Shown: positions 2,911 through 5,948 of the stretch, one piece after another
Layout of the letters: each line of letters begins with the position of its first letter
Position numbering within the stretch: position 1 is the first letter of the stretch
Assembly: GCA_902590505.1 (NCBI GenBank)
Contig: CACIWZ010000003.1
Location: forward strand, 62,001 to 126,000
From: an uncultured Pelagibacteraceae bacterium
Lineage (GTDB): Bacteria > Pseudomonadota > Alphaproteobacteria > Pelagibacterales > Pelagibacteraceae
Direction of reading: 5' to 3'
DNA: 64,000 nt
Made by a program: the position numbers and the translations under genes
Notes under the pieces: generated by a model
What the model was told of the DNA's origin: nothing
Database searches by the model: none
The model's input: only the letters and a program-made list of their open reading frames with translations

Positions 2911-4587
2911 ATGGATATAAGTAAATTAAATAGCTTAGTTGAGCTTTACTTTAAAAAGACAGAAGAAGTTGATGGTAAAAGACCATTTTTAAAATGGTTA
3001 AAACCAGATAAACGAACTTATAATTGGGAAGATATAACTGAAAGAATTTATAAGCTTACAGTAAAAATAAAATCATTAATAAAACAAGGTGATAGATGTT
3101 TAATACTTTCTGAGAATAGACCTTATTGGTTAATGACCGATATTGCTATTATGAACGCTGGAGGAATTTCAGTTCCTATTTTTACAACTTATTCAGCAAA
3201 CGATTACGAGTATATTTTAAATGATTGTAAACCCTCGTTAATATTTGTCTCAAATCAAGATCAATTCAAAAAAATTAAAAACTTTATAAACAATGATGTT
3301 AAGAAAATAATATCTTTTGAAAAGATAGATACTGATAGTTTATTAATCAAAGAAATTTTAGATGAAGAAATAAAAGAAAAAATAGTAAATAAAGATTTAA
3401 AAAGAAATATGCCTGCTTGTATAATTTATACTTCAGGTACGTCAGGAAATCCTAAAGGAGTTGTTTTAAGTCACGGAGGTATTTTGTCAAACTGTGAAGG
3501 AGCAGTTGAGTTACTAGAAGTTTTAACTAAAAAACAAGATCCAGTATTTTTGACTTGGTTACCTTTATCGCATTCCTATGAACACACAGTTCAATTTATA
3601 CAAATTATAGTTGGAGCAAAAGTTTTTTATGCCGAAAGTTTAGAAAAACTGATCTCTAATATGGGAGTAGCAAAACCTACAATCATGACAGCCGTTCCTA
3701 GATTTTATCAAAATCTTTTTACAAAAATAAATATGAATTTTGAGAAGCAATCTGGATTAAAAAGAAAACTTATAAACCAGACATTAAATTTAGGTAAAAA
3801 AATACTCAAAAAAGAGAAATTTAAATTAAGCGAAAAAATCATAAATTTTTTATGTGAAAAATTAGTTAGAAAAAAAATCAGAAATCAGTTTGGAGGAAAT
3901 CTCCAAGCTTTCGTATCTGGGGGAGGGGCTTTAGATCAAAATATTGGAGAATTTCTAAATGCTGTCGGTTTACCCACATTACAAGGATATGGCTTAACCG
4001 AAGCTTCTCCGGTCGTTAGCTGTAATTTACCAGATCTAGTCAAGGTCGAGTCAGTAGGACCTCCGTTTAGGACAAATAAAGTCAAAATAGCAGAGGATGG
4101 AGAAATTCTTATTAAAGGTGAAAATGTTATGTTGGGATATTGGAATTTAAAAGAGGAGACAGAAAAAGTAATTAAAGATGGGTGGCTTCATACTGGGGAC
4201 ATAGGAGAACTTGATAATAATAATTATTTAAAAATTACAGATAGAAAAAAAGATATTATTGTGAGTCTTGGTGGAGATAATATTTCTCCGAGCAAAGTAG
4301 AAAATATTTTGTGTTTAAATGAAAACATTAAACAATCTTTTGTTTACGGAGATAAAAAAAATTATTTAGTTGCATTAATTGTTAGTGAAAAAGGAATTAA
4401 TAAAGAAAAAATTAAACTTATAATTGAAAACATAAATAAAAATTTAACATTAATAGAAAAAATTAAAAAATTTATCTTAATTTACGAGGAATTTACAATT
4501 GAAAACGGAATGTTAACACCAACTTTAAAGTTAAAAAGAAAAGAAATAATAAAAAATTATAAACAACAACTAGAAAATCTTTATTAA
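2911..4587 (+). CDS. AMP-dependent long-chain acyl-CoA synthetase/ligase
   Basis: YTSGTSGNPKGVVLSHGG, GYGLTEASPVVS and GWLHTGDIGELD motifs. Confidence 0.9.
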   Translation: MDISKLNSLVELYFKKTEEVDGKRPFLKWLKPDKRTYNWEDITERIYKLTVKIKSLIKQGDRCLILSENRPYWLMTDIAIMNAGGISVPIFTTYSANDYEYILNDCKPSLIFVSNQDQFKKIKNFINNDVKKIISFEKIDTDSLLIKEILDEEIKEKIVNKDLKRNMPACIIYTSGTSGNPKGVVLSHGGILSNCEGAVELLEVLTKKQDPVFLTWLPLSHSYEHTVQFIQIIVGAKVFYAESLEKLISNMGVAKPTIMTAVPRFYQNLFTKINMNFEKQSGLKRKLINQTLNLGKKILKKEKFKLSEKIINFLCEKLVRKKIRNQFGGNLQAFVSGGGALDQNIGEFLNAVGLPTLQGYGLTEASPVVSCNLPDLVKVESVGPPFRTNKVKIAEDGEILIKGENVMLGYWNLKEETEKVIKDGWLHTGDIGELDNNNYLKITDRKKDIIVSLGGDNISPSKVENILCLNENIKQSFVYGDKKNYLVALIVSEKGINKEKIKLIIENINKNLTLIEKIKKFILIYEEFTIENGMLTPTLKLKRKEIIKNYKQQLENLY

Positions 4588-4719: not shown

Positions 4720-4750
4720 TTGACATGAATTTTTAATTAATTAATGTAAT
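4720..4750 (+). promoter_or_regulatory. Candidate promoter for the polybasic micropeptide gene
   Basis: TTGACA at 4720-4725 and TGTAAT at 4745-4750; 19-nt spacing is suboptimal. Confidence 0.35.
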
Positions 4751-4798
4751 TATTAACAAACGAATCATTAAGATTTGTTTACTAACAAGGGAGAAAAG

Positions 4799-4870
4799 AT
4801 GGCTAAAAGAAGAAAAAAAGCTAAAAAGAAAACTAAAAAGAAAGCAAAAAAGAGAAGAAGAAGAAGATAG
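4799..4870 (+). CDS. 23-aa polybasic micropeptide MAKRRKKAKKKTKKKAKKRRRRR
   Basis: ATG to TAG, AAGGGAG Shine-Dalgarno-like sequence 5 nt upstream of ATG, terminator just downstream; 18 of 23 residues Lys/Arg. Confidence 0.75.
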   Translation: MAKRRKKAKKKTKKKAKKRRRRR

Positions 4871-4886
4871 TTTTCTCTTTAACTAA

Positions 4887-4932
4887 GCGCCCTTTTTATA
4901 ATTTTTATAATGTAAAGAGGGCGTTTTTTTTA
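4887..4932. terminator. Rho-independent terminator, possibly bidirectional between the micropeptide gene and carD
   Basis: GCGCCCTTTTTA ... TAAAGAGGGCG stem followed by TTTTTTTT. Confidence 0.8.
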
Positions 4933-5601
4933 TGCGTCTTCTGAAATTTTAACTCTTCCTAAAGCTTTATCCATTTTTTTTTGTACTTCTTCAGGACTAA
5001 CTTTCAATACTGCTTCAAATTCAGATTTTAATCTTTCATAAGCCTTTTCAAATAACTGTCTCTCAGAATAAGACTGATCAGCTATAATGTCAGTATTTTT
5101 GTTAAGATCTTTTACAACCTCAGCTAATTCATAAATTTTTCCTGAATTTATTTTTTGATCATATTCTTGAGCACGTCTACTCCACATTGTTCTTTTAATT
5201 TTTGGTTTAGTTTTTAAAATTGATACACATTTATTAATCTGATTTATTGTAGCTATTGGTCTTAATTTAGACTGCTGATTTATTGGAACGGTAAGAGTTA
5301 ATTTCTCTTTCTCAACTAAAATTTTATAAAATTGAATATCAATTTCACCTATATTGGCTTTTTCGATCGCAGTAATTTTTCCAACACCATGTTTAGGATA
5401 AACAACAAAATCTTTCAAATTATATACTCTTTTTTCTGTAGGTTGTTTTTTAATTTTTTTTATTTCGGGTTTTTCATCTGGTCCAGAAATTGAAGTTTTT
5501 TTTTCGTTAGTTTTTAAAATTGATTTAGACTTAACTTTAGATTTACTTTTTTTTAAGATCTTTAAGTTTTTTATTTTTTTTGTTTTTTTCTTTTTAGGCA
5601 T
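4930..5601 (-). CDS. carD: CarD/CdnL family RNA polymerase-binding regulator with Lys-rich N-terminal extension
   Basis: YNLKDFVVYPKHGVGKITAIEKANIG...YKILVEKEKLTLTVPI is the CarD RNAP-interaction domain; about 65 aa of Lys-rich sequence precede it. Confidence 0.88.
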   Translation of the reverse strand: MPKKKKTKKIKNLKILKKSKSKVKSKSILKTNEKKTSISGPDEKPEIKKIKKQPTEKRVYNLKDFVVYPKHGVGKITAIEKANIGEIDIQFYKILVEKEKLTLTVPINQQSKLRPIATINQINKCVSILKTKPKIKRTMWSRRAQEYDQKINSGKIYELAEVVKDLNKNTDIIADQSYSERQLFEKAYERLKSEFEAVLKVSPEEVQKKMDKALGRVKISEDA

Positions 5602-5606
5602 ATATT

Positions 5607-5948
5607 TTATTGTCCTGGTTTTTCAGAAAAATATTTAGCATATTTATCAGTCTCATTTTCAAATTTTTTATGATCTGGCATAGGATCTTTTTTTTTAGAT
5701 ATATTTGGCCACACTCTTGAATATTTGTCATTTAATGAAAGCCATTTTTCCTTATCTTTTAAAGCTGGATCGTCATCTGATACGATTGCATCAATCGGAC
5801 ACTCAGGCTCACAGACTCCACAATCAATACATTCATCTGGATTTATCACAAGCATATTTTCACCTTCATAAAAACAATCTACAGGACACACTTCAACACA
5901 ATCAGTGAGTTTACATTTTATACATTCATCTTTTACAATATAAGTCAT
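5607..5948 (-). CDS. fdxA: Ferredoxin, 7Fe type
   Basis: [18 protein letters not shown] and [12 protein letters not shown] cysteine motifs. Confidence 0.93.

Follow-up and report, generated by a model that had tools for sequence, protein, structure and literature searches.

The eukaryotic ribosomal protein eL41 has 25 residues and a fixed length, and bTHX and the actinobacterial bL37 are tiny, basic, and missed by gene callers, as is the SAR11 gene that we describe here. No sequence relation to bTHX or bL37 was found, and both composition and lineage differ. Among the H1-like proteins, Hc2 of Chlamydia has 165–237 residues, varies in length by repeat number, and binds DNA (PMC2848022), and AlgP, which also binds DNA, carries a tail of about 154 residues of repeats whose length likewise varies with repeat number (PMC9239181). 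Set beside these is a 23-residue open reading frame next to carD in Pelagibacteraceae, which is a real and overlooked gene as regards both its existence and its conservation.

The window, by which we mean the entire 64,000-nucleotide stretch of DNA that was analyzed, comes from an uncultured member of this family. The frame, peptide, and coordinates proposed in an earlier sequence-only reading proved exact when read again, and its AAGGGAG, upstream TTGACA, and downstream hairpin with a T tract could each be located (Table 1). Lysine and arginine make up 11 and seven of the 23 residues, respectively, and none is acidic; after the methionine, only K, R, A, and T occur, with three alanines and no proline. 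The MA[KR]5 start is found a single time in the source genome (1.04 Mb, 17 contigs). Around the gene are carD, the ferredoxin, a TerB-like gene, and the acyl-CoA synthetase.

Table 1. Features of the short gene and its surroundings in the window
Feature	Position	Strand	Basis or remark
AMP-binding acyl-CoA synthetase-like gene, upstream neighbor	2911..4587	+	Pfam; context
TTGACA, probable -35 element	4720..4725	+	Spacing to CGAATC kept in relatives
5'-leader hairpin AAACGAATC-ATTAA-GATTTGTTT, 9 pairs, 5-nt loop, holds CGAATC	4758..4780	+	Folding, conservation
Shine-Dalgarno AAGGGAG	4787..4793	+	Sequence; 5 nt from ATG
CDS, 23-aa polycationic protein MAKRRKKAKKKTKKKAKKRRRRR	4799..4870	+	Sequence, synteny, purifying selection
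Terminator hairpin, 14 pairs, then T8	about 4886..4931		Folding and covariation
carD (CarD_TRCF_RID and CarD_C), convergent neighbor, tail to tail	4930..5601	-	Pfam
4Fe-4S ferredoxin (Fer4, DUF3470), upstream of carD, same strand as carD	5607..5948	-	Pfam; context

A search for CarD found it in 96 of 118 family genomes, and we read 90 of those loci, from 12 genera. At 88 of the 90, and in all 12 genera, an intact K/R-rich frame of 19–58 residues lies convergently just past the carD stop codon. At one of the remaining two loci (L095) the frame is cut by the contig end, and at the other (L112) an extra A in a homopolymeric A run, which may be a sequencing error, causes a frameshift near the 3' end. 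Thus, the suggestion that an overlooked family is conserved in this lineage was borne out, here and in a sister family, and the contrary signs that had been named (no syntenic frame, or disrupted frames in relatives) did not materialize, the one frameshift apart. Moreover, among 50 named SAR11 loci, some from genomes that overlap with the family set, the frame is present in all 48 with room for it. The short gene is always adjoined by carD in SAR11, and the acyl-CoA synthetase lies upstream in all testable family loci but one.

It had also been proposed to check whether the ribosome-binding site, terminator, and length are conserved and codons vary synonymously; this holds for all but the length, which is not constant. 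Frames of 19–24 residues are found in genera g1, g2, g3, g6, g8, g11, and g13, and those of the others have 23–35 (g4), 20–32 (g5), 29–32 (g7), 29–41 (g9), and 34–58 (g12) residues. Past the start codon, the 88 sequences use only K, R, A, T, P, G, S, and V, with no acidic residue. Loss of the locus was considered for five genomes whose assemblies have neither carD nor the ferredoxin (L122–L126; G084, G064, G103, G077, and G113), and was rejected. Here, all the contigs stop at a common point within the acyl-CoA synthetase gene, and the absence is therefore an assembly gap. At L090 (G030 contig 6), carD and the short gene occur twice, inverted, on one contig, which is probably an assembly artefact.

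The expression signals of the short gene are conserved as well. The distance from TTGAC to CGAATC is 41 nt in the window and 39–42 nt wherever a family locus is long enough to show it; searched for as a pattern, this arrangement turned up at the locus in 20 of 20 genomes, drawn from two families. No convincing -10 box follows TTGACA, nor is there a clear -10 consensus in the relatives, and the TTGACA site received no call in a simple promoter scan. GGGAG or GGAG precedes the start codon in nearly all relatives. The leader contains a hairpin that was additional to the features of the sequence-only reading and that, as CGAATC...GATTYG, has one copy in the source genome. In both SAR11 families, CGAATC lies 36–63 nt upstream of the start codon, and in all genera examined it begins or overlaps the leader hairpin, the stem of which differs between genera. 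We saw no compensatory change in this stem within the main genera, and so covariation cannot decide between a DNA palindrome and an RNA structure. In g5, g7, g9, and g12, the position of the stem changes but CGAATC is retained; an RNA structure fits this better, and a palindromic operator is accordingly the less favored candidate. In the leaders of g7, g9, and g12 (L104, L092, and others), a conserved CTCC after the hairpin is complementary to the GGAG of the ribosome-binding site, and pairing between the two, which is absent in the window's genus, is a possible translation switch. The sister-family leaders (L185, L226, and others) have a strongly conserved ACCTCTAACNAAACCC before the ribosome-binding site, with which it can pair.

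This sister family, AG-422-B15 (per L334), is the second family of the order, and at the same spot it encodes proteins of 40–91 residues in 21 of 22 loci, the remaining locus being cut by a contig end. These proteins, of which one begins MEELKVIFAKARKKAKKKAAPKKKRKAAKRKPAKKK, are rich in KAAPKKK/KRKPAKKK repeats. The TTGACA/CGAATC leader is shared with the window's family, as is a convergent carD, again beside ferredoxin and TerB genes. The acyl-CoA synthetase is absent upstream in the sister family, and at the one locus checked the upstream neighbor is a CsaA-like tRNA-binding gene. We call the short and long genes homologous because leader and position are shared, the sequences themselves being too low in complexity to show homology. 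The two are bridged by the g12 forms of 34–58 residues (AAKKKAPAKKRKPAAKKK); close relatives differ in length through their number of repeats, and the order as a whole spans 19–91 residues. An AlphaFold model of an 85-residue relative, made from a single sequence, has helices without a fold (pTM 0.27) and carries little information. Taken together, this is an order-wide syntenic family of 19–91 residues with a conserved promoter, leader, and terminator, in which the short forms may derive from longer H1-tail-like ones. Beyond the order, we found no carD-adjacent frame of this kind in 69 loci of other families of Alphaproteobacteria, a few of which leave little space for one, or in 30 further named loci from other Alphaproteobacteria, 99 in total. 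A class-wide search with the 85-residue sister protein gave no match anywhere, even in the SAR11 genomes included, and hence is an empty result rather than evidence of absence elsewhere in Alphaproteobacteria. Members of 23, 38, 50, 58, 85, and 91 residues had no meaningful match in Pfam or NCBIfam, a test weakened by low complexity. The literature searched contains no description of a polycationic gene beside carD in SAR11, and the carD-flanking region is absent from the GC-rich intergenic table of the 2009 P. ubique intergenic RNA survey (PMC2704228).

With respect to function, the sequence-only reading had likened the peptide to histone H1-like tails, and the longer proteins at the syntenic position in the sister family lend this comparison support. 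In fact, the sister-family (40–91 residues) and g12 (34–58 residues) members have in common with Hc2, BpH1, and the tails of AlgP and PhaF a K/A/P low complexity and a variable repeat number. However, the SAR11 members are far smaller, the 23-residue form is almost pure K/R and, with its three alanines and no proline, less H1-like than its long relatives, and no profile match exists; the likeness is one of composition and repeats. Since the family matches the DNA-binding H1-like tails in composition, in lacking acidic residues, and in varying by repeat number, we favor, with moderate confidence, a free-standing SAR11-wide gene for a low-complexity H1-tail-like polycation that would act as a small nucleoid protein, probably by binding nucleic acid and most likely DNA. 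It is from this likeness that we infer both the binding of nucleic acid and DNA rather than RNA as the partner, though a polycation binding RNA or polyphosphate could also tolerate variation in length. Such a protein would bind nucleic acid by charge and with little sequence specificity, and, once bound, would screen the phosphates and help to compact or organize the nucleoid. The conserved leader hairpin might, as speculation, govern how stable the mRNA is or how well it is translated, possibly through autogenous feedback. More tentatively, and with considerable doubt, genome streamlining in SAR11 may have eroded a chromatin protein of the H1-tail kind to ~20 almost purely cationic residues, which would make it the smallest free-standing nucleoid protein known, with a dedicated promoter and a leader that may sense the peptide. 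Here is a gene below the usual limits of gene calling that has a promoter, leader, and terminator of its own and is kept in essentially all SAR11 genomes examined, and which therefore likely matters to the cell. Moreover, the series from 91 down to 19 residues amounts to a natural experiment on the minimum length of a functional polycationic nucleic-acid-binding protein.

The main rival, which we regard as unlikely, is a ribosome-associated micro-protein comparable to eL41 or bTHX, whose short basic helix would be embedded in rRNA. The short forms resemble eL41 very closely in size and K/R content, as they do in charge density and in probably being a single helix, and the strong Shine-Dalgarno sequence, constant promoter spacing, and structured leader would suit a ribosomal component. 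Yet, through differences in repeat number, members from a single order range over 19–91 residues, which is unlike ribosomal proteins that occupy a fixed site, and this variation weakens an eL41-like role. A PDB sequence search also returned no chain at E up to 10, albeit with little sensitivity for 23 low-complexity residues. Quite unlikely, in our view, is a polycation whose partner is some other polyanion (polyphosphate or RNA condensates, for instance), or which a streamlined cell uses as a counter-ion. The H1-like AlgP does associate with polyphosphate granules (PMC9239181), and we see no strict constraint on the family other than its composition, but none of the neighbors listed above suggests polyphosphate.

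That the product is a protein at all was judged from the pattern of substitution. In 16 independent close pairs, single-base codon differences comprise 31 synonymous and 10 non-synonymous changes, seven of the latter being K/R swaps. Random placement of the same changes predicts 13.5 ± 2.6 synonymous ones and did not reach 31 in any of 5000 shuffles; the placement model disregards context effects on mutation, though the margin is large. A looser test (136 synonymous against 99 expected) was dropped in favor of the strict pair test, as repeats were misaligned. The short frame is under purifying selection as a coding gene. As for the terminator hairpin, compensatory changes occur at seven of 11 pairs (35 sequences), and its end coincides with the carD stop codon on the converging strand, a point absent from the earlier reading. 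Together with T8, it forms the terminator of the 23-residue gene and probably acts on the opposite carD transcript as well. Synteny, synonymous skew, and the covarying terminator uphold the view that this is a discrete gene and not filler. It is highly improbable that the locus makes a small non-coding RNA in which the purine-rich stretch arose by chance and the frame is incidental. The region does fold better than shuffled sequences (z = -4.1) and has conserved hairpins on both sides of the frame, but the changes are strongly synonymous, the frame is kept through many changes of length, the start codon and Shine-Dalgarno sequence are conserved, and the hairpins are placed like a leader and a terminator. 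That the gene encodes an antimicrobial or toxic cationic peptide, or is what remains of a mobile element, is scarcely credible and disfavored by vertical conservation. The peptide is indeed short and highly basic, but is single-copy in an order-wide fixed synteny, has no hydrophobic face, and has no PHROG match.

Codon usage in the 88 sequences is 874 AAA and 306 AAG, with neither AAT nor AAC. In the window and its relatives, lysine is encoded by AAG at 20–32% in the short gene and at 13–17% in carD, and runs of A in the short gene reach nine at most; the higher share of AAG and the limited A runs may reflect selection against poly-A slippage. SAR11 CarD itself has a lysine-rich N-terminal extension (5490–5601 of the window, minus strand), and the carD open frames are longer still, at about 270–325 codons, in g4 and the sister family.
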